Source: an uncultured Nesterenkonia sp.
GTDB lineage: Bacteria > Actinomycetota > Actinomycetes > Actinomycetales > Micrococcaceae
Length of the DNA: 64,000 bases
Direction: 5' to 3'
Assembly (NCBI GenBank): GCA_947494195.1
Contig: CANLUC010000005.1
Location: 1 to 64,000 of the forward strand
Position 1 is the stretch's first letter, and every line of letters begins with the position of its first letter. Of this stretch, positions 12,159 through 25,459 are shown piece by piece. The notes under the pieces are model-generated. The model did no database searches. It saw only the letters and a list, made by a program, of their open reading frames with translations, and was not told the origin of the DNA. The translations under genes and the position numbers were made by a program.

Positions 12159-15100
12159 CTAGTTCCCCCAACTCCTCCGGTCTCCGGCAGGCCAGGCGAC
12201 CCCACGAGATTCAAGTTCTTCGCGTGTTAGGAGCGGTGACGCGAGAACGTCCTGGAGCAGTAGAGCAAGATCTCTCTCCAGCGAGCACAGCTGCCGGACC
12301 ATTGCGAGCAACTCCGTAAGCTGTTCTGACCACTCTGGTATCCAATCGAGCGAGTCAATCTCATCGAGGGGAGAGGTGCGCAACTTATCCGGCTCCTCCT
12401 TACGAAAGTTCAGCCACTGCGGCACGACCTCTGTGCCTCCCACCTTGTAGCTCATAACTTCCGCTCCGACTCCCTCCCAACGGCCGGTGCCGACGCTGAG
12501 CGTCCTGCTAATAGGTTCATATCTCCACCCTTTCGGAATCTCCTGCACAGCTGCCGCATAAACGGCGTTCAAGCGTGGCTCCACCTCCAGGACGTTCTTC
12601 CACCCGGCCGGATGATGACCGCGGGCTCCGAATGTGTGCAACCAGATGAGGTGATTCCCGTTTTCAACTGCCCTGTTCCAAAGTTGAGGGTTGCTCGTCA
12701 CCGGCAGTCGAACACCAGGCGTGTGTAGCTCCTCGTCGAATTCGGCGACAAAGCCCGAATGACCAGCGACTGCGGCCAGGTAGGCAAGAACTTCCTCCCC
12801 AAGGACAGGTTGGCGCAGCGACCTCGACAGCACTGTCGTCAACCCTTCCGCAATATTCGGCACTCCATCCGGGTCCAACATGGGGAACGTGCGACCCCCA
12901 CCACTCCCGCGGAAGTGGTGAACGTCAGGAATCAGTGCTGAAAACACGACCCCCGGTCCGGCTTTTGGGTGTTCCGAGTGGAGCTCAATGGCAAATAGCT
13001 GATCCTTAATTCTCGCGCGCCAGAGTTCGGGGGATGCCCTGTTCATAAGACGGCTGTCTGCGATCAGATATTGCCGGTCAAAAGCGCGGTAGCCGCAAGG
13101 AACTATAGAGATCGAGGTCAAGACATCCATCTCGCCCACCGGGATCTTGGTTTCTCTTGTGACATCCGACCCACAAAGGGGATTCTTTTTTGCTTTTAGG
13201 CTGGCTCCAGTTTCAGCATCACCATTTACAAATAGTTTCGCTTTTTTTTCCCAATTGTCCTCGTTTACTAGGTGCCGCATCCTTTGTTCAAGGATATCTT
13301 TTGAAGGCGAATATATCCAATTTCTACCTGTCATAACGCCTGGTCGACGAAAGGGAATTAAGTCATCTAGACGGGGAAATGAATCCCAAGATGTTGTGGC
13401 TGCTGGCGTGAATGGATCCGTCCATCCAGACCTGACCTCTTTCCAGTGATCACCATCAAGCTCTAAGGTATTTAGCTGCTGAAATTTTTGGGCTCTCTTG
13501 CCCTCAATTGATGTATACCTGATTCTGGCGGGCTCACTCTTCTTCGTGCCTTGCTGGCGAATGAACATTGCAATCACCACAGGCGTCTCGATTCCAAAGA
13601 CTCCGTGGCCGGCGGGCGGTCGCAACCCTTCCGGCGATACGTTGATAATCCAGCCGTGGGAACAAGTGCGGCGCAAGTATTCCCGCATTCCCCTAAACCC
13701 GGGGCCCGTCAGATACCCCGTGGCCGTGATGAAACAAATAACGCCATTGCCGTCGTCAAGGCCATCTCGGTCTTGTGTAGACTCGAATACCTTCCATGTA
13801 GCCCACCGCCAGAAGTAGACGTACAAGTTACTGAGGGTGCGCTCATGCCCTCCGTTTCCTGCAAGGCGAAACGCATCGAGGGGAGCAAGTCCCGTTTGAG
13901 GGTCCACACCGGACTCAACCCAGCCCCCCATGCCGCCAGCATGGTCCTTGTACGGGGGGTTGCCGATACAGACCTCAACATTCTTCTCACGCTTCATCCG
14001 GTTGGCCCTTTGGCGCTGGTCCGCTACGAGTTGAAGGGTGTAAGAGAGATTCGCCCCCTGCGACGCAGCTGGATCCTCCAAAGTATCAGCCACATACAGG
14101 TTCAACCCGTCCCTTGGAATGGCAGCATCATACTCACGAATTGCCTGTGAAATTCTCAGCTCGGCGACCGAAAAAGGACCAGACTGCAGCTCTATTCCGT
14201 GGATTCGGCCGGCAACATCAGTCACAGCTTCGGATGCAGCCCCAGGTCCAAGCTGAGCACTTGCCGATTCACCCGCGTGTCTAAGTACTGACAATGGGTA
14301 GGTTCCGGTACCCATAGCTGGATCAACAATATTAACGCTGGGGTGACGCAGCCCCTCATGCTTACCCAAGTAATTTTTGAGTGCTAAATCTGAAATCCTG
14401 ACCATAGAATCGACGGTTTCAACTGGAGTATAATATGATCCAGAAAGCTGCCTTAATTCCGGATCGTAGGCTTCAAGAAAATGCTCATATAAGTGCAAGT
14501 ATACGTCTTGAGTCCCCGCATTTACTGCGGACCAGTTAGTAACAGCCAGGGTGCGAACGACGATCTCGATAATATTCCACGCGGCAGTTCCTTCCACGTG
14601 TTCGATTAGAATATCTAGCGCGCGGGCCATGAGGGTGTGGCTTTGGTCGAGCTCCCGAGAGACATCCCGCAAGGTCCCACGCTGGAGATCGATATCCTCA
14701 CTAACCGCAAGGAGCAACGCAAACACAACTGTCTGCGCAAAACCATCGGAAAACTCACGGTCGGTGGCCCTTGGGAAAAGTAGTTGGCGCCAATCGTTCT
14801 TAACCCCTGTGAAAGGTAGAGCCAGAACGGACGCGCCCTGTCTCGCGGCTTTCCTCTCAAGTTGCAGGGCGTCGTGAACCTCTTCACGCAATAATCGAGC
14901 TAATGGTGCAATGGTGTCGACCAGTCGGCGGATGGACGTCACAGGAGTTGGCGACCAACTCAAGAAGTCACTGAGCACACCTTCAAGCCGCCCCGGGGCG
15001 AGTAGCGGCCCTGTGTGACGTGCCAGATCGCGTGCATGTAAATGGATCGGGTCGTCTACCAAAGTCCCATAGCGCCACAGACGAAACTCGATACCATTCG

Positions 15101-15437
15101 TATGTAAAAGATTTGGGAGTTCACGAAGTCGTTGCCACTGCCGAAAGTTGTGGGTGGTTTTCCCGTAGCTCGCGGGATCAAGGTTGGTTCCTGGGGCCTT
15201 GAGTTCGACGTGCCCGACCAATGAGCCATTGACACGCACACCGAAGTCGGGTCTCACCGTGTTGTCGAGTTCGCGTACCTCATTGTGCATCACCGCTGTC
15301 CGGTTCATCAGGGTCGCATACTGTTCTATTAACGACGTGACCGGAGTCAGCAGCAACGCTTCCTTCTCACCGGGACCCTGCAGACGCTGCTTCGCGTCTT
15401 TCCCATACAGCTCTACGATCTCGGCGAAGGTGCGCAT
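12159..15437 (-). CDS. Single-chain restriction-modification enzyme (nuclease plus N6-adenine methyltransferase, type ISP/IIG-like)
   Basis: The protein has 1092 residues. ATG 15437 is chosen because GAGGAG stands five bases upstream. The N-terminal domain has a PD-(D/E)XK signature: RPDFG (D64) then GHVELKAPG (E78, K80). A helical section ends in LSGSYYTPVETVDSMV. Methyltransferase motif I is DPAMGTGTY (about 372-380) and motif IV is NPPY (493-496), the amino-methyltransferase type. The long C-terminal part has the target-recognition layout of type ISP enzymes. No helicase motifs are seen, so it resembles a IIG/IIL-style one-protein system. Several stretches (around 13180-13520) are AT-rich relative to the chromosome, which suggests transfer. 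Confidence 0.85.
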   Translation of the reverse strand: MRTFAEIVELYGKDAKQRLQGPGEKEALLLTPVTSLIEQYATLMNRTAVMHNEVRELDNTVRPDFGVRVNGSLVGHVELKAPGTNLDPASYGKTTHNFRQWQRLRELPNLLHTNGIEFRLWRYGTLVDDPIHLHARDLARHTGPLLAPGRLEGVLSDFLSWSPTPVTSIRRLVDTIAPLARLLREEVHDALQLERKAARQGASVLALPFTGVKNDWRQLLFPRATDREFSDGFAQTVVFALLLAVSEDIDLQRGTLRDVSRELDQSHTLMARALDILIEHVEGTAAWNIIEIVVRTLAVTNWSAVNAGTQDVYLHLYEHFLEAYDPELRQLSGSYYTPVETVDSMVRISDLALKNYLGKHEGLRHPSVNIVDPAMGTGTYPLSVLRHAGESASAQLGPGAASEAVTDVAGRIHGIELQSGPFSVAELRISQAIREYDAAIPRDGLNLYVADTLEDPAASQGANLSYTLQLVADQRQRANRMKREKNVEVCIGNPPYKDHAGGMGGWVESGVDPQTGLAPLDAFRLAGNGGHERTLSNLYVYFWRWATWKVFESTQDRDGLDDGNGVICFITATGYLTGPGFRGMREYLRRTCSHGWIINVSPEGLRPPAGHGVFGIETPVVIAMFIRQQGTKKSEPARIRYTSIEGKRAQKFQQLNTLELDGDHWKEVRSGWTDPFTPAATTSWDSFPRLDDLIPFRRPGVMTGRNWIYSPSKDILEQRMRHLVNEDNWEKKAKLFVNGDAETGASLKAKKNPLCGSDVTRETKIPVGEMDVLTSISIVPCGYRAFDRQYLIADSRLMNRASPELWRARIKDQLFAIELHSEHPKAGPGVVFSALIPDVHHFRGSGGGRTFPMLDPDGVPNIAEGLTTVLSRSLRQPVLGEEVLAYLAAVAGHSGFVAEFDEELHTPGVRLPVTSNPQLWNRAVENGNHLIWLHTFGARGHHPAGWKNVLEVEPRLNAVYAAAVQEIPKGWRYEPISRTLSVGTGRWEGVGAEVMSYKVGGTEVVPQWLNFRKEEPDKLRTSPLDEIDSLDWIPEWSEQLTELLAMVRQLCSLERDLALLLQDVLASPLLTREELESRGVAWPAGDRRSWGN

Positions 15438-15847
15438 TGAACTCCTCGTTGGTTTCTTCCGCCGCACCGGGTCGGCCTGATGCAACATTCTGTCCTGGTT
15501 CTGATCTGGGCCCATTGTAGTTGGGGCTCTCGTTGTAGGTCTCGCGACGACGAGATCCAGGGTTGACGCGCACTCTGCCGAAGAAGCTCGAGTGGTCGGC
15601 GATCAGCGTCAGAATTTCGCTGACAGACCGTCTCAGCGCGGTCTCCTCCTTGCGCGGCATGCGCTCTAGGGAGCCTCGAGAATGTCAACTCACTTAGACT
15701 TGTGAGGTGGTAGAGACCAGGATTGGCCTCCCCGTCATCCGGGATGCAACCAAACTTGAGCTGTTGCTCGTTGGCGTATATCACGTTCGAGCGGAACACT
15801 GAGCTACCATTCCCCAGCCGCAAACTAGGAACTGTCTGCTTATAAAC
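15438..15847. other. Gap upstream of the restriction-modification gene
   Basis: These 410 bases have no convincing gene. Two overlapping minus-strand frames (to 15660 and 15823) have short protein-like openings but then run into the start of the downstream gene and lose coding character. They may be remnants of a small gene broken by a frameshift. The promoter of the restriction-modification gene should lie here. Confidence 0.35.
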
Positions 15848-16240
15848 TCAGGACGCAGGATAAAGACCGATCTTGCTCCACCGCGGAGCGGTCGGCATTT
15901 CCAGAGAACCCAGCAGCTCCTGAATATGCGGATGCGCCGGTGAATCGAAAACCTGCTCCACGTCCCCGAACTGCGCCGCCTCCACAACCTTCATGACCAG
16001 GATGTGACCATTCACATGGTGGGTCACGCTCAAATCAAGGATGATGAAGACATCGGAAGTCCGCAGCGTCTCATCCGGCTCGGCGAGTAGATCGAGGAGC
16101 TGAGCCCGCATGGAGACGTCCAGGGCCGACACCGCCTCGTCCAGCACCACCACGTCAGGCTCCGAGGCCCACGCCAGAACGGTCGGGGACCGCTGACACT
16201 GGACGCCGGTAGTTTCAGAGGACGCTAGAAATTGCGCGGC
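15848..16240 (-). pseudogene. Decayed oligopeptide/dipeptide ABC transporter ATPase (Opp/DppF type)
   Basis: Only the second half of the nucleotide-binding domain is recognisable. It has a degraded signature (GVQCQRSPTVLAWASEPD in place of the SGGQRQR form), then VVVLDEAVSALDVSMRAQLLDLL (Walker B and D-loop), a worn H-loop (FIILDLSVTHHVNGHILVM) and GDVEQVFDSPAHPHIQELL, the usual DppF tail. No Walker A is found upstream in any frame. Damage to invariant positions and loss of the first half indicate a pseudogene. Gene decay fits a region of repeated insertion. Confidence 0.75.
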
Positions 16241-16627
16241 GGATCCAACCCCGCCAGCCGCGCCATTTCCTCGGCGCAATCCCTCAGCGTGACTCACTGC
16301 CGCCGGCGAGCCTCCAACGCGATGCCATCGGTGGCAGGTTCCAGTGTTTCGCTGAGGATTTGTTCGGCAGTTCAGCGCGGATGCAAAGAACTCAGTGGGT
16401 CTTGATCCGCCTCGGCAACCTCGCGCCGTCGACTGCGACGCCACGAGGCATATCAGCACCGGGGCGCATGCGATCAATGCTCGTCAGCGTAGACCGTCGG
16501 AAACTTGTTTCACCAGGGCGTGACTGCTCCCACGGCGCGTGGAGATGTCAGTAGCCTTCCACTGCTGAGAGATCAACCATGGATTACATACATTGACTAT
16601 CGATAGATAATCGTCGATGATCAATAT
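16241..16627. other. Degraded stretch leading into a promoter region
   Basis: About 390 bases have no supported gene. The left part is presumably further remnant of the decayed transporter. The right end (16580-16627) turns AT-rich and contains the palindrome and promoter-like boxes listed separately. Confidence 0.4.
16584..16627 (+). promoter_or_regulatory. Promoter/operator candidate with CTATCGATAG palindrome
   Basis: CTATCGATAG at 16597-16606 is a perfect 10-base palindrome. GATAAT at 16606-16611 is a good -10 box, with TTACAT at 16584-16589 as a possible -35 at 16 bases. Transcription would start close to the ATG at 16628, which has no ribosome site, so the message may be nearly leaderless. 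The palindrome overlaps the -10 box, so a repressor bound there would block transcription. Confidence 0.4.
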
Positions 16628-18504: not shown

Positions 18505-19968
18505 CTAGTCGAAGAAATAGGCGGAGATCTTCTCCTGCGAGTCCAAGACATCCTCTGAGTCCACACCTAACTCCACGGCGAGCTCCACGGACCCGGCTAG
18601 AGCGATCTCCACATTCGGCGAGAACGCCCTCTCCAACAGATCGATGTAGTCCGTCAGAGTCGACTCGAGAGCCTCAAGAAGCTCCTGGTGCTCAGAAGCC
18701 AGCTGGGCATCCAACTCGCGCTGCTCCTGTGCATAGCGCTCGACCAGTGCGGTTTCTCTCTCAGAGAGCGAGGTGGCCACCGCTCGGTACATGACAGTGC
18801 CGACCGTATTGCCAATCACTGCACCCAGGACCGGGACCGGGACGAGTACCTGCCCGAGGACAGAAGACAGCGCACTGACGGAAGCTTCCAATGAGATCAG
18901 CTCAGCATTCTGGATGAATTCCAGCTCGTTGATCTCCCCGACGCGCAGCAGATGCGCTTGCTCGGCGATCCCGAATCCAGCGGTCACGATGGAGCTCGCC
19001 ACCGCTGCTGGAGTGGCCGTGAAGTTCGACAGCGCGTAGAGACTGACACCACGAACAGAACCCTGGACCGCACCTAGACCCGTAGCGCTCGCAACATCGA
19101 TCCAATCCTGTTCGCTAAAGTCCTTGAACTTCTTGCCCTCCCGACGCTTGGCGGCCAATGCTAGTACAAGAGCAACCCCTCCTTCGGCCGCCGTGGCTGT
19201 GGCGGTCGCCGTTCCCGCCTGTCTCAGAGAGGGGCGGCTCTTCTGATAGGCCTCATCGCGCAGAGACCGGTCCGTGGAGTGCAGAGAATCGCGCTCCGCC
19301 CCCAAAGTGGACCCGTAAACCTCCCTCTGTACCTGGTGATACTCCAGCGTCGACGGTTCAAGGGCATCGATGCTCACGGACCCGTCGGCAAAGAAGTCGC
19401 GCACCCGCTGCCAATCCTTGAGCGAGGGACCATCACCGCTCCGCGACAGGAACTTCCCGGCCTCCTCGGCGGGCAGATCATTCAAAGCGCGAATCGCCTC
19501 GTAGTGGTCACGAGGTATCTGATACTTGCCGCCGTGGGCGAGGAAATCAGGGTACTTCGAGAGATGCTCTGAGATTGCGCCCAGTCCAAGACGCCCACCG
19601 GATGCCACGAACTTCTGCTGGATCCCAACACCTTCGCGTACGAGGTCGACAGGGCTGTTGTTGTTTATCCATTGATAGACAGCACCCTGGCCCTGAACCT
19701 GACTACGAGCATTGCCGACTCCTACTTCGGCAACTTCAGCGATGAAACCGTGCATTCCCTTAACTCCACCGCGGTTGGTGAACACAACTTCCAGGTGGAT
19801 GGTCCTTACCGCCTCATCGATGCTGCTCAGCGCGTCTCTGAGGTTGGTGTCCTGGCGCCTGAGCGAGCTCAACAATGTGTCCAGGCGAATCTGGTTGAGG
19901 TGGTTCACCCAGGCAGCGACAACTTGTTCCTGGTTGCTCTTCGCGAGGTTCTCTTTCTCATTCGTCAT
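18505..19968 (-). CDS. Large protein with PD-(D/E)XK-like N-terminus and central hydrophobic region; unknown
   Basis: The protein has 487 residues with no recognised named family. Residues 72-125 read HGFIAEVAEVGVGNAR, a conserved-looking HGFxAE helix. After it come SPVDLVREG (D108) and IQQKF (Q118, K120), a layout like PD-(D/E)XK nucleases in which Q replaces the second acid. A segment of coiled and charged sequence follows (150-240), then an Ala/Gly/Val-rich hydrophobic zone (about 250-385), a strong coiled coil (SLSERETALVERYAQEQRELDAQLASEHQELLEAL region) and an acidic end. It overlaps by 11 bases the gene upstream, so the two are translated together. Confidence 0.7.
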   Translation of the reverse strand: MTNEKENLAKSNQEQVVAAWVNHLNQIRLDTLLSSLRRQDTNLRDALSSIDEAVRTIHLEVVFTNRGGVKGMHGFIAEVAEVGVGNARSQVQGQGAVYQWINNNSPVDLVREGVGIQQKFVASGGRLGLGAISEHLSKYPDFLAHGGKYQIPRDHYEAIRALNDLPAEEAGKFLSRSGDGPSLKDWQRVRDFFADGSVSIDALEPSTLEYHQVQREVYGSTLGAERDSLHSTDRSLRDEAYQKSRPSLRQAGTATATATAAEGGVALVLALAAKRREGKKFKDFSEQDWIDVASATGLGAVQGSVRGVSLYALSNFTATPAAVASSIVTAGFGIAEQAHLLRVGEINELEFIQNAELISLEASVSALSSVLGQVLVPVPVLGAVIGNTVGTVMYRAVATSLSERETALVERYAQEQRELDAQLASEHQELLEALESTLTDYIDLLERAFSPNVEIALAGSVELAVELGVDSEDVLDSQEKISAYFFD

Positions 19969-20953
19969 GAGCCGGTTCCGTGTCGATACGACTGCTGAGC
20001 AGGGCCGCGCAGGCTTTCGTGTTGTTGACCATCGCCACCAGCTGGGACTGCTGCTGCGCCGTCACGGTGCGGAAGTCAACGTTGAAGAACCCAACTGACT
20101 GGCGGTAGCTGTTCCGGAGTCGTTCGCGAAGGCCCTCGGTGCGTTGGAGGAGGTCACCAAGCTCCGCGTCCATCCGCTTCACGGAGGCGGTGTTTCGTTT
20201 GACCGAGGTCAGCGCCTCCTGTCTTGCTTCACGGTTCTCAAACTTCTTCTTGGCGAAGAGCGCGATGGACGTCAGCAAAGTGGCACCTGCAATTGTCCAT
20301 CCAATGGGGCCAGCCAACGCCAGCAATGTACCGCCCGCGGCCGTGCCTCCACCACCAGCGGCCAGGGCGCCGCCTCCGAGCCAAGCCAACGCGGATTGTG
20401 AGGCTGCGGCGCCAGACAGGGTCGAGATCGCGGTCCCAGTGGATGCTGTGCCAAAAGTAGTGGCCACCCACATGGCGGCTGTCGGGGCCACGCTGGCAAC
20501 AGCAGCGCCCGCAGCGAATCCGGCCCCGCTGCTCAACGCCGACTCCCGAGCCGCTTCGAGGTCCCTCAGCCCAAATTCCTCCGCCTCCAGAAAACTCGTC
20601 CGGTGAAACTTGATCTCTTCGAGGTCGACGTCAAAGGATTTCGGAGTGTTGGCGACGCTGTTCACCATTTCTTCGATGAGCTGGATCAGGTCAGTGGAAC
20701 GCTCCCTCTGCAATAGAAGCGAGACCCCTTTATCGCTCATCAGGGTGAAAGCATTGTTATATTCGGCAATGGCCTCCTCGTATTCATCTGGCTTATTGTC
20801 AGCAAGATTCTCAAGGCTCCCTACGGCGGAGTCTTTAAACTCGCTGACCTGCTCCGCGAGCTGACCTGAGGCAGTCCGTGCGAATCTGCTGATGTCTCCG
20901 GCAGTCTTGCCGAGGCTGACCTTTGCGTTGTCCATCCGGGGTCGTTTAACCAT
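19958..20953 (-). CDS. Helical protein with long glycine-zipper membrane segment; unknown
   Basis: The protein has 331 residues. ATG 20953 is preferred (GGAG four bases upstream) over a later ATG at 20935. Predominantly helical charged segments (1-140 and 236-331) flank a very Gly/Ala-rich hydrophobic stretch at about 141-235, containing TFGTASTGTAISTLSG and WLGGGALAAGGGGTAAGG. This 'GTASTGTAI... LAWLGGG' type of segment recurs in bacterial proteins of unknown role and has the amphipathic-helix/hairpin look of pore-forming or membrane-inserting proteins. It is the first gene of a coupled pair with the 487-residue protein. A neighbouring Mrr-type nuclease gene ends 112 bases upstream. Confidence 0.7.
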   Translation of the reverse strand: MVKRPRMDNAKVSLGKTAGDISRFARTASGQLAEQVSEFKDSAVGSLENLADNKPDEYEEAIAEYNNAFTLMSDKGVSLLLQRERSTDLIQLIEEMVNSVANTPKSFDVDLEEIKFHRTSFLEAEEFGLRDLEAARESALSSGAGFAAGAAVASVAPTAAMWVATTFGTASTGTAISTLSGAAASQSALAWLGGGALAAGGGGTAAGGTLLALAGPIGWTIAGATLLTSIALFAKKKFENREARQEALTSVKRNTASVKRMDAELGDLLQRTEGLRERLRNSYRQSVGFFNVDFRTVTAQQQSQLVAMVNNTKACAALLSSRIDTEPAHDE

Positions 20954-21065: not shown

Positions 21066-21995
21066 CTATTCGAAGAAGTCTTCGTCAATCTCGACGACCG
21101 CATAGGACTGTTTTATCTGAACTCCTACGCCGTATTTGATCATCAGTTCCGCGAGTCGCTTCCCATCGATAAGAACAATCCGAGTTGGGACAGCGCTCGC
21201 ATAATCGCGCGCCCCCTGCGTGAATCGGCTCGAGGTGATGAAGACGCCCCGATGTGCCCCGAACCCATGGAGGGCGCCCATGAAAGCCTGGATAGACTCA
21301 CGGCCTACTGAGTTGCCGTCCGCGTAGCGTTTGGCCTGGACGTAGATTTGGTCTAGACCGAGCGCATCCTGGTCTATGACCCCGTCTACCCCACCATCTC
21401 CAGTGCCCCCGATACGTTTGCCGCGCTGTTCTGCGCCTCCATACCCCATTGCCAACAGGACACTCACCACCGCATCTTCGAAGAAGGTGGGGTTGCTTTC
21501 ACGGAGGCGACGGAGTAGCTCTTCTGCAACATTCTCTCTGAGCTGCGCGACCCCTGATTCGACCTGTTCAATGGGGTCGAGGTCGTTTGTCTCGGGGACG
21601 GTCGTGGCGACCGACGTCACGCCGTCCGCTTGCGTGGTCTGTGGCCAATAGTCCTTAAATAGCTGGGTGGCTTCACTGAAACTGAGCGTCGCATTCGGGT
21701 TCTGGGTGAACCACGAGCGTCCCGTCTCGGTGATGCGATAGACAGCGCGCTGTGGGCGTTCCACCCAACCTGCCTTGTAGAGGTTGGTCAGTGCCCAGCC
21801 AACCCGGTTCTCAGCACGACCGTCGCCTGCGGCCAGAGTCTCCTTCCGAGCCTCATTGGAGATCTCGGCCGCGTCGAGAACGCGTTCGACCAGATCTCGC
21901 CGCGGGACCGTTTCCCCGGAGTCGAGCACCCGTAGAACGTAGGGCAGGAAGTGAGGCCAGATTGGAACACCAGACTCTGTGGTCGGTTCACTCAT
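21066..21995 (-). CDS. mrr: Mrr-type restriction endonuclease (type IV)
   Basis: The protein has 309 residues. The N-terminal domain (about 10-100) is the winged-helix Mrr_N type (VPIWPHFLPYVLRVL... RPQRAVYRITETGRSWF). The C-terminal domain is the Mrr catalytic core: FFEDAVVSVLLAMGYGG, GGTGDGGVDGVI (D204) and IYVQAKRY (Q220, K222), the standard D/QxK form. Mrr proteins cut DNA with modified bases. The size and layout are complete. It lies between a two-gene membrane module and a DUF6308-like gene on the same strand. Confidence 0.92.
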   Translation of the reverse strand: MSEPTTESGVPIWPHFLPYVLRVLDSGETVPRRDLVERVLDAAEISNEARKETLAAGDGRAENRVGWALTNLYKAGWVERPQRAVYRITETGRSWFTQNPNATLSFSEATQLFKDYWPQTTQADGVTSVATTVPETNDLDPIEQVESGVAQLRENVAEELLRRLRESNPTFFEDAVVSVLLAMGYGGAEQRGKRIGGTGDGGVDGVIDQDALGLDQIYVQAKRYADGNSVGRESIQAFMGALHGFGAHRGVFITSSRFTQGARDYASAVPTRIVLIDGKRLAELMIKYGVGVQIKQSYAVVEIDEDFFE

Positions 21996-22455: not shown

Positions 22456-23154
22456 CTAGATACCCCTGTTCTCATCCCCGGCGAACCGCCAGAGCGCCGC
22501 GTCCATCAACCGAAGCGGTTCCACCTCGATGGTCAGGGCTGTCCCTCTATGTGCCTCCTGCGCTAGATCCGGGAGCTCGGATAGCCGACCTTGAATCTCC
22601 TCGTCGCGCAGAAGCTCACGAAAGACGTACCAGTCCCGTGCTCGATCGTTGAGGTTCTGAATGCCGAGGTACTTGCACACGACGCGGTCTCGAACTGGGT
22701 AAAGGTCTGGCCGCTTACGGGCCGTGATCTTGCTCGCCGTCACCCATGGATTCGATGACACGGTGCCCGATTGTGCCAGTGATGCCTTGACCAGATCATA
22801 GAACTCACACATCGGCGCGAAATCAATGGCCGTGGTCGATTCGAGCTTCACCGGCGGAAGCGCCGACAGGAGGCGAGAGAGTTCTCGTTTGGTGTCTTCG
22901 TCCTCCAGAATTCTCCGCACGGCGCGCGGCGGGATCCTCACCGAGAGAGTTCCCGTGGCCAATAGGTCGGTCGCCGTCACAGCCACCATGTCGAGAGGAC
23001 GCAGTTGAGTGAATGTAGAACCCGCGAAATTGCTCTCAGGATCGTAGAACTTGCCGACTTTCTCCGGCGTGCTCTCATGCGACAAGGCCTTGAGCGCCTG
23101 ATCACGAGCGCGAGTCTGGATTTTCTCGTCTACCGAGGGAAAATCTAATTTCAT
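22456..23154 (-). CDS. DUF6308-like protein
   Basis: The protein has 232 residues. Recognisable segments are KFYDPESNFAGSTFTQL, PLDMVAVTATDLLATGTLS and ARKRPDLYPVRDRVVCKYLG. These correspond in order to the 'YDP..FTGS.F..L', 'D.VAVT.L' and 'RKRP.L.PV.D.VV' blocks of DUF6308 proteins, a family common in actinobacteria and often encoded near defence genes. The central VRIPPRAVRRILED is also typical. Its function is not established. It stands between Mrr and a GmrSD-type nuclease on the same strand. Confidence 0.65.
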   Translation of the reverse strand: MKLDFPSVDEKIQTRARDQALKALSHESTPEKVGKFYDPESNFAGSTFTQLRPLDMVAVTATDLLATGTLSVRIPPRAVRRILEDEDTKRELSRLLSALPPVKLESTTAIDFAPMCEFYDLVKASLAQSGTVSSNPWVTASKITARKRPDLYPVRDRVVCKYLGIQNLNDRARDWYVFRELLRDEEIQGRLSELPDLAQEAHRGTALTIEVEPLRLMDAALWRFAGDENRGI

Positions 23155-23455: not shown

Positions 23456-25330
23456 CTATCGGTACTTGTCGAGGCGGGAGGTCGACCAGATCCGTTCTAC
23501 GAGTCCTTCCAACAGCTCTTGGCGTTGTCTCTGTTCCTCTTTGCCGAAGCGCTCATAGGGACGGAAAGGCAATCCGCTTTTTCGGACAAATGCACTGAAT
23601 TGTGGCTGGTGTTCGTATGCCGCGGGCGTCAGGCTCGCCGCGTAGAGGTTTTGCTTTGCGTAGTGCGGCACCTTGTCCTGAAAGGCTCGGTCTTGGTAGC
23701 TGCGATTAACGTCCGCAGGCAGCAGGACAAGCCCAGCGACCTGATTGCGCCACTCAAGAAAATCTTGCTCAGTTTCAAACTCCTCCTGGTGCTGGTCGTA
23801 CCGGTGCGCCCAGATATGCTCCACATCCCAAGGGTTCGACTGCTGCCGATCCACTAGGTTCATGAAGTTGTCGGGCCTCCCGGACTCCGACTCCACGTAC
23901 GCAGTCACCCGTGCCAAGAGGTGATAGATGTAGCGGTGGGAGAACTGGTTCACCGCCAGCCCCTTCAACCCAGAGCGCCCCCTAGCTTGGGCACCATCAA
24001 AGGACACCTGTTCGGCATCCTCTTGCAACTTGCGTTGCAGTACCTCGACCAACTCAGGCAGTGGCAGGCGCCGGATATCCTTCGTGAGCATCCACATCGA
24101 GTAGGCCACGTTCGAGTAAGTGATCCGTATGTAGTTGGCCGCACGCCGCATGATCCAGATGTCCAAGTACGTCGCAGTGGCCGCGATTTTGTCACGGACG
24201 GTCGCGTCGTCGTCCCCGACGATCAGTGGCGCGAGGAGAACCGTTGATTGGAGAGTGAAGTTGTTGTGGGCGTTGTAGAAGACCGGTTCCAACCCTGGCG
24301 TGTAGTCACGACTGGCCGCGAGGATCCTCTTGTAGGCGTTGGCGAAGAACTGCATCTCGGTCGTCATGAAGTGCAGGTTTTCCCCACCTTCTCCGACGTT
24401 CAGTCGTTGAGCTCGATCCCGTGCCCAACGGTGAAATGCGTTGCCGATCAATTCCCAGTCTTTGTCTGCTGCGCCGGCTTTGCGTTCGCGGACGGACTGG
24501 GCATACTGCGCTCGCAACCAAGCTTTGACGAAATTGGCATCACGCTCCGCATCCGGCTCCGATTCCCAGGAGATCAGATCGTTGATGGTCTTCTTCCACG
24601 TCATATTTGCGTGTGCACGGTCCCCGGAGTCTCGAATTGACCCGAGCAGGAAGGCTTTGAGCATGTCTACAGGACTCAGAGGCTTGCCTCTGTCGTTCAT
24701 GGTCTCGAAGATGGCGTAGGCATAGGAGTCTGAAGACGTCTCGATCTCGATGAGCCCGACGTTCTCAATGAGCCAATAGATGAAGGTCTCCAGCCCATCA
24801 TCCAGCTCACCGTGGAGGTCCACCTCCTCTATGTCGCGGTAGCGGGCGAGCATGGTCTGCACTGATTCTTCACGCGCGGTGGCATCTGCATCTTCACCGT
24901 CGAAGAGTGCACGAAGAACCGGAACGCGCTCTTGGATGTCGAGGTTGAACTTGGCCTGACCCCGCACGTCAGAGTGAATCAGCGGTTGCAGCGTCGGGAC
25001 CGCGCTCAGCCCTAGCTCCTTGGAGATTCGGTAAAGATGTATCAGCAACAGCGTGAGGGACGTTACCCTCTGCTGCCCATCGACCAGATAGCTCTTGGCT
25101 CCACGTTTGGTCACAATGATGGAGCCCAGAAAGTACTCCCCGTAACCCTCAGTGTCCGAGGGGCCATCGCCTTCCCGATAGTCAGCGAGGAACTTGTTCA
25201 GCAGGTCCGTGATCAGCTCCTCGACGTTGCTCCGCTCCCACTTGTACTCCCGCTGATACTCGTCGATCGAGAATGAACGGCTTTGTAGCAACTGTCGAAT
25301 GGACCGGTAGTGCGGAGTAATGCCTGTCAT
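23456..25330 (-). CDS. GmrSD-type DUF262/DUF1524 nuclease, single chain (type IV restriction)
   Basis: The protein has 624 residues from the ATG at 25330; a GTG seven codons earlier is possible. The N-terminal DUF262 (GmrS-like) has FSIDEYQREYKWE and the NTP-site motif DGQQR (84-88) in YLVDGQQRVTSLTLLLIHLY. The C-terminal DUF1524 (GmrD-like, HNH-type nuclease) has DVEHIWAH (H505), then NQVAGLVLLPADVNRSYQD. Fused GmrSD proteins restrict phages with glucosylated or modified cytosine DNA. The gene stands alone but is the last member of the defence-like series. Confidence 0.9.
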   Translation of the reverse strand: MTGITPHYRSIRQLLQSRSFSIDEYQREYKWERSNVEELITDLLNKFLADYREGDGPSDTEGYGEYFLGSIIVTKRGAKSYLVDGQQRVTSLTLLLIHLYRISKELGLSAVPTLQPLIHSDVRGQAKFNLDIQERVPVLRALFDGEDADATAREESVQTMLARYRDIEEVDLHGELDDGLETFIYWLIENVGLIEIETSSDSYAYAIFETMNDRGKPLSPVDMLKAFLLGSIRDSGDRAHANMTWKKTINDLISWESEPDAERDANFVKAWLRAQYAQSVRERKAGAADKDWELIGNAFHRWARDRAQRLNVGEGGENLHFMTTEMQFFANAYKRILAASRDYTPGLEPVFYNAHNNFTLQSTVLLAPLIVGDDDATVRDKIAATATYLDIWIMRRAANYIRITYSNVAYSMWMLTKDIRRLPLPELVEVLQRKLQEDAEQVSFDGAQARGRSGLKGLAVNQFSHRYIYHLLARVTAYVESESGRPDNFMNLVDRQQSNPWDVEHIWAHRYDQHQEEFETEQDFLEWRNQVAGLVLLPADVNRSYQDRAFQDKVPHYAKQNLYAASLTPAAYEHQPQFSAFVRKSGLPFRPYERFGKEEQRQRQELLEGLVERIWSTSRLDKYR

Positions 25331-25459
25331 GCGCGTTTCGCCTTCCCCCACGATCTATGGATTCAGACCACGGGTATTGTCAGGTATTGCTTGATTCTGA
25401 GTTCACTGATCCCCTGTCGATCTACGAGGGCTCGTATGATTCCCCTCGAAACCAGGCCA

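Follow-up and report, generated by a model that had tools for sequence, protein, structure and literature searches.

A PDC-M09 candidate defence gene pair from Nesterenkonia with a near-invariant Gly/Ala hairpin and a nuclease-like signature

The window analysed here is the whole 64,000-nucleotide (nt) stretch of an uncultured Nesterenkonia sp. (positions 1 to 64,000 of contig CANLUC010000005.1, assembly GCA_947494195.1), and our subject is a pair of overlapping genes on its minus strand, referred to as A and B (Table 1). An earlier note on this DNA had described two co-translated genes for proteins of 487 and 331 residues with an 11-base overlap, and open reading frames (ORFs) of these lengths are indeed present, overlapping as described. 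The start of A was placed at 20953; the ORF of its relative in Nesterenkonia sp. Act20 (L002; L numbers denote loci examined) has no earlier start codon and likewise begins MVKRPRMD. The amino-acid identity to the Act20 proteins is 87.6% for A and 90.1% for B, and the ratios of nonsynonymous to synonymous substitution rates (dN/dS) of 0.104 and 0.116, respectively, indicate that both are protein-coding genes under purifying selection. B is present once in the source genome (2.78 Mb, 27 contigs). Scans for repeats, tRNAs and promoters gave nothing useful, the lone 23-nt imperfect inverted repeat being probably due to chance.

Neither protein has a match above the cut-off in Pfam or NCBIfam. In PADLOC-DB, the PDC-M09A model aligns with A over model positions 1-326 of 330 and the PDC-M09B model with B over positions 3-486 of 486 (Table 1). 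The genes are adjacent on one strand with A upstream of B, as in PDC-M09, and adjacency is presumably also the rule by which PADLOC calls this system; no difference from the catalogued candidate was found. Judged by these profile matches, the pair is a further member of the already catalogued candidate defence system PDC-M09, and hence not unrecorded: the earlier claim that the proteins belong to no named family stands for Pfam and NCBIfam and falls for PADLOC-DB. PDC entries are candidate phage-defence systems derived from guilt-by-embedding, and their names reportedly trace to a 2024 preprint by Payne. The open full-text library, to which preprints and most subscription papers do not belong, returned no paper on PDC-M09, PDC-M09A/B or the function or mechanism of M09A/B.

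Table 1. Coordinates of the gene pair, its predicted parts, its neighbours and related features (window positions unless a locus is named)
Feature	Position	Strand	Basis or remark
Gene A, PDC-M09A	19958..20953	minus	331 residues, helical, hydrophobic Gly/Ala hairpin, first of the pair; PDLC04406, E 2.6e-148
Gene B, PDC-M09B	18505..19968	minus	487 residues; nuclease-like domain, hydrophobic helices, long helix; PDLC04408, E 5.1e-240
Overlap of A stop and B start, 11 nt	19958..19968	minus	Translational coupling probable; close spacing conserved elsewhere
A residues 57-141, two long predicted helices ahead of hairpin	20531..20785	minus	Model, ten-residue mean pLDDT 46-84
A residues 157-219, near-invariant Gly/Ala hairpin	20297..20485	minus	Alignment identity and hydropathy peaks
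A residues 241-319, long predicted helices beyond hairpin	19997..20233	minus	Model, ten-residue mean pLDDT 58-85
B residues 66-165, nuclease-like domain	19474..19773	minus	Alignments, profile comparison, model
B residues 73-78, HGFIAE, helix with invariant E78	19735..19752	minus	Alignments
B D108, invariant	19645..19647	minus	Alignments
B Q117-x-K119, Q and K both invariant	19612..19620	minus	Alignments
B residues 152-154, P-x-D	19507..19515	minus	P152 invariant in alignments A1 and A3, D154 in A3
B residues 246-400, Gly-rich hydrophobic helices with GQxxxPxPxxGAxxG zipper	18769..19233	minus	Alignments, model, structure comparison
B residues 401-487, long helix and C-terminal tail	18508..18768	minus	Model; tail also present in the other type of hairpin partner (L064, L066)
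Mrr-type type IV restriction gene	21066..21995	minus	112 nt upstream of A, same strand
DUF6308 gene	22456..23154	minus	Family match
GmrSD-type gene	23456..25351	minus	Fits HEC-06, Orf5 and SspE models
Type ISP/IIG restriction-modification gene	12159..15515	minus	Family matches
WYL regulators, Escherichia coli islands	L041:11088-11966, L042:10833-11786		Directly upstream of M09A
Cousin 'glycine zipper' proteins	L041:14328-16850 (840 residues), L043:14328-16850, L070:6848-8845 (665 residues), L072:6809-8497 (562 residues), L073:5732-8248

The structure of A was predicted with AlphaFold from an 11-sequence alignment. The model has a mean predicted local distance difference test score (pLDDT) of 55.2, with helices at residues 57-99, 105-141, 241-285 and 299-319, and its hydrophobic segment lies mostly below a pLDDT of 50 (132-159, 168-239). 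Hydrophobic 19-residue windows fall within residues 146-227 and recur in the tested relatives (11 sequences). The hairpin itself, with limits picked after the alignment was seen, has a mean pairwise identity of 0.86 with 42 of 63 columns invariant among ten relatives from Actinobacteria, Bacillota, Cyanobacteria and Enterobacteria; its two flanks reach 0.33 and 0.28, and 0.17 would be expected for the segment from composition alone. The corresponding values in the 11-sequence set, which includes viral contigs of unknown host so that the cross-phylum figures are taken from the smaller set, are 0.84 with 37 of 63 columns invariant, and 0.27 and 0.24 for the flanks. The Gly/Ala hydrophobic hairpin-like segment between long helices to which the earlier note drew attention is thus present and among the most conserved parts of the protein. 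Searches of solved structures with the sequence of A gave nothing significant (best E 0.016, a coiled-coil chimera), and Foldseek found no match in the PDB at E 0.001.

The conserved head of B carries the residues singled out previously (HGFxAE, then D, then QxK, followed by a hydrophobic zone); they are among the best conserved in the protein. The invariant columns in 18 aligned proteins include G67, H73, G74, I76, A77, E78, N86, D108, Q117, K119 and P152, and the pattern HG[FE]x[AS]E ... D-x8-Q-x-K-[FY] fits all 24 distinct M09B proteins. The ordered E (in the first helix), D and Q-x-K (E78, D108, Q117 and K119) correspond to the residue pattern of PD-(D/E)XK nucleases; Q standing in for E/D in this motif is known from TnsA. 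The AlphaFold model (8-sequence alignment; mean pLDDT 65.2, predicted TM-score 0.44) places these residues in a helix at 69-92 (E78), a strand at 107-111 (D108) and a strand at 114-118 (Q117), followed by a helix at 128-138 and a strand at 149-151. The signature and the predicted order of secondary structure are compatible with a PD-(D/E)XK core, a nuclease fold being unproven. Structural comparison with VIA-align placed no PD-(D/E)XK protein among the best 50 matches listed, which is not proof of absence. Foldseek found no match among viral models, the top rows being largely tail or tape measure proteins with TM-scores of 0.1-0.2, which we take as coiled-coil noise.

Downstream of the head, hydrophobic 19-residue windows lie within residues 254-385 of B and recur in the tested relatives (eight sequences). 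The nearest natural shape to residues 246-371 found by VIA-align is NDUFA11, a Tim17-type bundle (9w2v_Y: Z 9.0, root-mean-square deviation 3.6, 106 residues aligned; 5gpn_Ag: Z 8.9, root-mean-square deviation 3.6, 108 residues aligned); a designed repeat protein scores on a par with it (7rdr_A, Z 9.3), and such helical-bundle scores lie below the safe level of the tool. Two proteins of other Micrococcaceae that appear by eye to be similar to type VII secretion system proteins (L015:46-1716 and L026:1417-2562) carry the M09B zipper in the form GQxxIPxPGVGAxIGG.

The M09B model matches none of 14 control genomes; the M09A model matches one (Sulfolobus acidocaldarius) and is therefore the less specific of the two. 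Among 295 Micrococcaceae genomes, 24 match the M09B model at 1e-3, eight of them over most of its length (the genome of the window counted, and one with an in-frame stop), and four of 296 genomes in a phylum sample match it, two at full length including the window's own. The other 16 Micrococcaceae matches (E 5e-9 to 9e-4) were not counted as M09; 14 of them, including the L015 and L026 proteins, cover only model positions within 352-432, with the zipper GQxxIPxPxxGA. The remaining two are a 42-residue match in genome G482 and a divergent pair in genome G549 (L014), which has an A-like gene adjoining and was set apart as divergent. The matches L057-L060, again confined to the zipper, were likewise not counted. 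M09B matches occur in 61 of 72,556 plasmid records (46 from Klebsiella, five from Lactococcus, four from Leptolyngbya, three from Rhodococcus and one each from Curtobacterium, Raoultella and Niallia) and in 11 of 5,426 E. coli genomes. Six of the latter have the complete pair in the chromosome (the query is covered in full in five and to 54% in ET896), and four of these loci were fetched; the other five match over 5-7% of the query and were not counted. In viral contigs, six loci hold both genes, and one of these (L052) is nearly identical to an E. coli copy; two scans of the viral contigs with single proteins returned one locus and none.

The two genes are consistently found together. Both are present at 25 of the 30 loci examined and are adjacent in all 25; in every case a possible start codon for B falls within the stretch from 17 nt upstream to 13 nt downstream of the A stop. 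These are not 25 independent events, since L041 nearly duplicates L052, and the pairs in L005 and L014 are divergent. The arrangement was found again in Actinobacteria, Bacillota, Cyanobacteria and Enterobacteria, and each of seven actinobacterial genomes has one M09A gene, adjoining M09B. Searching with A retrieved nine viral loci, of which six have B, one ends with A and two have another partner. Among the five loci without a full pair, the sequence of L039 opens 63 nt ahead of the B frame, that of L062 ends with A, and L064 and L066 have an A-like gene beside another partner. The fifth, L050 (G392 contig 65), is a degraded M09 in which B is broken by an in-frame stop, with no A in the 19-kb stretch.

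Relatives of two other kinds bear on how the parts are combined. The head and membrane region of B are shared with a cousin family of 562-840 residues (hhalign probability 96.8, E 2.9e-10 over 297 columns in a single comparison of 24 with four sequences; head alone, probability 94.1, E 1.2e-7). The cousins, which have no Pfam name, show the signature [HQ]G[FY]AAE...DR...IQTK[FY]...EVP-x-D-x-Y ahead of a Gly-rich membrane region; they are homologues of B that are longer than it and have the same D-x8-QxK spacing in the printed sequences. A looser form of the B signature fits three of the four cousin proteins and misses L072. The cousin directly follows M09B in two E. coli islands, those of PSJ-29 and Z226-5 (L041 and L043), and in L070 and L072 (Lactococcus and Selenomonas plasmids) it lies without A behind a WYL or helix-turn-helix (HTH) gene. 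Conversely, the hairpin protein of L064 and L066 stands beside a partner whose only similarity to M09B is in the C-terminal tail (E 1e-5 and 0.0028 with a tail profile; the contig end truncates the partner in L066). The same alternative partner is fused to a hairpin segment in one open frame of L087 (699 residues in the fetched stretch, 812 in the genome), with 31% identity over 345 residues for the partner part (E 3.9e-35) and 51% over 51 residues for the hairpin part (E 4.3e-11; both single-pair E-values). Conserved [HN]PTLLGLFFSIL and HLISD-x-x-GS motifs mark this partner (L064:6130-8698, L066:1-1605, L087:1-2097), which is possibly an enzyme. Hairpin matches at 1e-3 occur in at least six of 346 sampled actinobacterial genomes; with so few matches the hairpin is rare and not a common Gly/Ala run.

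The earlier description of the surroundings as a run of anti-phage genes is borne out by the Mrr, GmrSD and type ISP/IIG genes of the window (Table 1). The G+C content of A, B and the Mrr, DUF6308 and GmrSD genes is 57-60%, compared with 64.2% for the whole window. In Act20 the pair likewise has an Mrr gene upstream, together with a type I R gene. Elsewhere, the neighbours are often defence genes and not consistently housekeeping ones: a divergent HerA-SIR2 adjoins the pair in L044, UzuA and PDC-S14 lie directly upstream in L045, and in L047 (1363-10572) SngA-SngB-SngC run into M09A and M09B on one strand. We take Sng and Uzu to stand for Shango and Uzume, respectively. The SngC of L047 has an extra C-terminal part that fits DEDDh and PDC-S48 models. 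In Leptolyngbya, restriction endonuclease and AAA genes adjoin the pair (McrBC-like by name in one record), and in Niallia, HNH and GIY-YIG genes are annotated nearby. The fetched E. coli loci have a WYL gene directly upstream of M09A in three of four cases and an IS3 transposase in the fourth, with SIR2 in two loci and BREX and TrlF in one. Tellurium-resistance genes stand beside a Klebsiella plasmid copy.

To assess whether such neighbours exceed background, 74 neighbour proteins from eight actinobacterial loci were compared with 98 proteins from eight arbitrary stretches in six of the same eight genomes, using a home-made gene caller. At E 1e-60, a threshold set after the results were known, PADLOC models match at least 11 of the 74 neighbours and none of the 98 controls (Fisher p 6e-5), or five of eight and none of eight stretches (p 0.013), counts in which genes of one operon are not independent and in which the window and Act20 appear to share a locus.

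The reading that we consider the likeliest, with less than even confidence, is that A and B form an inner-membrane anti-phage complex in which A would be the platform and B a tethered DNA-acting part, by analogy with SNIPE and Kiwa. A would put its hairpin into the membrane and oligomerize there, while B would be anchored beside it through its own Gly-rich hydrophobic helices, with the nuclease-like head in the cytoplasm. Injection of phage DNA, or its replication at the membrane, would then engage the complex, and the putative site formed by E78, D108, Q117 and K119 would cut or at least grip that DNA. Tethering to the membrane, together with the adjoining WYL regulator in the E. coli islands, may keep the complex off the chromosome. 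The support in hand consists of the overlapping genes, the constant pairing, the invariant signature, the hydrophobic segments and the defence-island context, for which Mrr, GmrSD, HerA-SIR2, UzuA, SngA-C, the type I R gene, the McrBC-like genes, BREX and SIR2 were counted; and the constant hairpin with exchangeable partners speaks for A as a platform.

Several known systems provide comparisons. PADLOC-DB includes Kiwa models, none of which is among the matches listed for A or B. Kiwa (KwaA-KwaB) resembles the pair in having two genes, for a membrane protein and a DNA-acting partner; according to a review, KwaB binds DNA without cutting it (PMC12904381). SNIPE (PD-lambda-1), which is reported to cut phage DNA during injection (PMC13190303), shares with the pair a nuclease-type head, a membrane anchor and a defence setting. 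It is described there as one protein with a single N-terminal transmembrane helix, DUF4041 and GIY-YIG (PMC13190303), whereas the pair differs in its nuclease-like signature and has several hydrophobic helices as well as a second protein of membrane type; A and B have neither a GIY-YIG nor a DUF4041 match among those listed up to E 10.

A number of results weigh against a tethered DNA-acting complex. Compared with an alpha-beta-beta-beta-alpha-beta core, the B model is one strand short and its first two strands have a pLDDT below 50; the models of both proteins are weak. B has no significant match to solved structures by sequence (best E 0.21) and none in the PDB by Foldseek at E 0.001, and the divergent pairs L005 and L014 do not match its signature pattern. 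The defence context is also uneven. At 1e-20, about 13 of 74 neighbours and at most 11 of 98 controls match PADLOC models (p 0.17), a non-significant enrichment; a single model, mad3, accounts for five of the control matches. Three of the eight actinobacterial loci (L046, L048 and L049) have no defence neighbour, with no PADLOC match among the proteins scanned singly, and no clear defence gene is annotated beside the copies of Rhodococcus, Curtobacterium, Klebsiella pasteurii and L. raffinolactis. Finally, conservation in SNIPE is highest in the nuclease and lowest in the N-terminal membrane region (PMC13190303); here, the order is reversed, with an identity of 0.86 for the A hairpin and 0.46 for the B head (in different sequence sets). 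This conservation points to a role for the hairpin beyond anchoring.

An active hairpin leads to the closest rival, which we give nearly equal weight and regard as possible: an abortive-infection pore, in which the B head would sense phage nucleic acid and A, or A with B, would open a pore that depolarizes or kills the infected cell. That the hairpin is by far the most conserved part of A is what would be expected if the exact packing of a pore matters, and it is retained with a partner that has no match to the nuclease-like profile (L064 and L087). The WYL gene upstream in most of the fetched E. coli loci would fit a costly system. The helical-bundle matches of A include the ClyA and SmhB pores, at E 0.25-0.6 only (6mrt, E 0.25; 2wcd, E 0.32, with Z 4.9 and a root-mean-square deviation of 6.3 over 125 aligned residues for a weak model of mean pLDDT 55). 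No match of A to any pore former is significant, and the invariant E, D, Q and K of B would be unneeded for sensing alone. A complex that is tethered to the membrane, acts on DNA and leaves the cell alive would explain the observations about as well as abortive infection. Taken together, the observations of the earlier note are confirmed, and its interpretation as an abortive-infection pair is partly supported, plausible but unproven. A broader idea, which we hold with considerable doubt, is that the hairpin marks a class of membrane modules in bacteria that join one fixed inserting piece to varying partners, DNA-acting or otherwise (M09B, or the partner in L064 and L087). Such an immune platform in the membrane would be selected for exact packing and not for hydrophobicity alone, for example as a gated channel that senses phage entry and also licenses the tethered enzyme.

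It is unlikely that the pair mainly serves purposes other than phage defence, as a toxin, maintenance or exclusion module that is carried by plasmids or other elements and simply builds up in islands and plasmids. The many plasmid copies, several of them without an annotated defence neighbour, the islands with integrases or transposases and the recurrence of the B membrane zipper in secreted-toxin-like proteins would suit such a module. However, the pair repeatedly adjoins differing defence systems across phyla, it is chromosomal in six E. coli genomes, and neither gene reads as an antitoxin or immunity gene. The narrower idea of a polymorphic toxin with its immunity gene was dropped because A is not immunity-like by reading and the gene order and spacing are fixed.

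We consider it slightly less likely still that the pair is an offshoot of the bacterial dynamins that lacks a GTPase, with A as a LeoBC-related membrane-remodelling stalk and paddle for membrane repair or surveillance. A matches the PADLOC LeoBC model at 6.2e-7 and its Klebsiella relative does so at 1.1e-4, and in Lactococcus pDRC3A the pair lies between two HTH-dynamin genes (L034:571-2598 and L034:11271-13448), with ISS1 copies between, one of which dynamin-family genes matches LeoBC at 2.3e-12. However, neither A nor B has a match to the dynamin GTPase domain (Dynamin_N) among those listed up to E 10. At E 0.1 the hairpin profile finds no match in the Lactococcus dynamins, and the M09A model reaches only 0.23 against one of them. 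Coiled coils and Ala/Gly segments readily give weak matches, as with tape measure proteins (6.4e-4 for A) and the S. acidocaldarius control.

What had been an anonymous catalogue entry thereby acquires a model that is open to testing, in which four named residues of B and one hairpin of A should be essential. If the membrane-tethered complex is the correct reading, phage DNA would be told from self by place and not by sequence, alongside SNIPE, Kiwa and Zorya. The hairpin poses a puzzle of its own, as a greasy Gly/Ala segment that is 86% identical across four phyla while the flanking helices have drifted to about 30%. As Klebsiella plasmids and six E. coli chromosomes carry the pair, tests with E. 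coli K-12 and standard coliphages would be easy.

Two observations concern other ORFs of the neighbourhood. In Act20, a gene near the pair (L002:13456-15210) appears by eye to encode an OLD/RecF-type ATP-binding protein. In the window, the ORF at 15848-16477, between the type IIG gene and the pair, shows what appear by eye to be remnants of an ABC-transporter ATPase and is perhaps a decayed gene.

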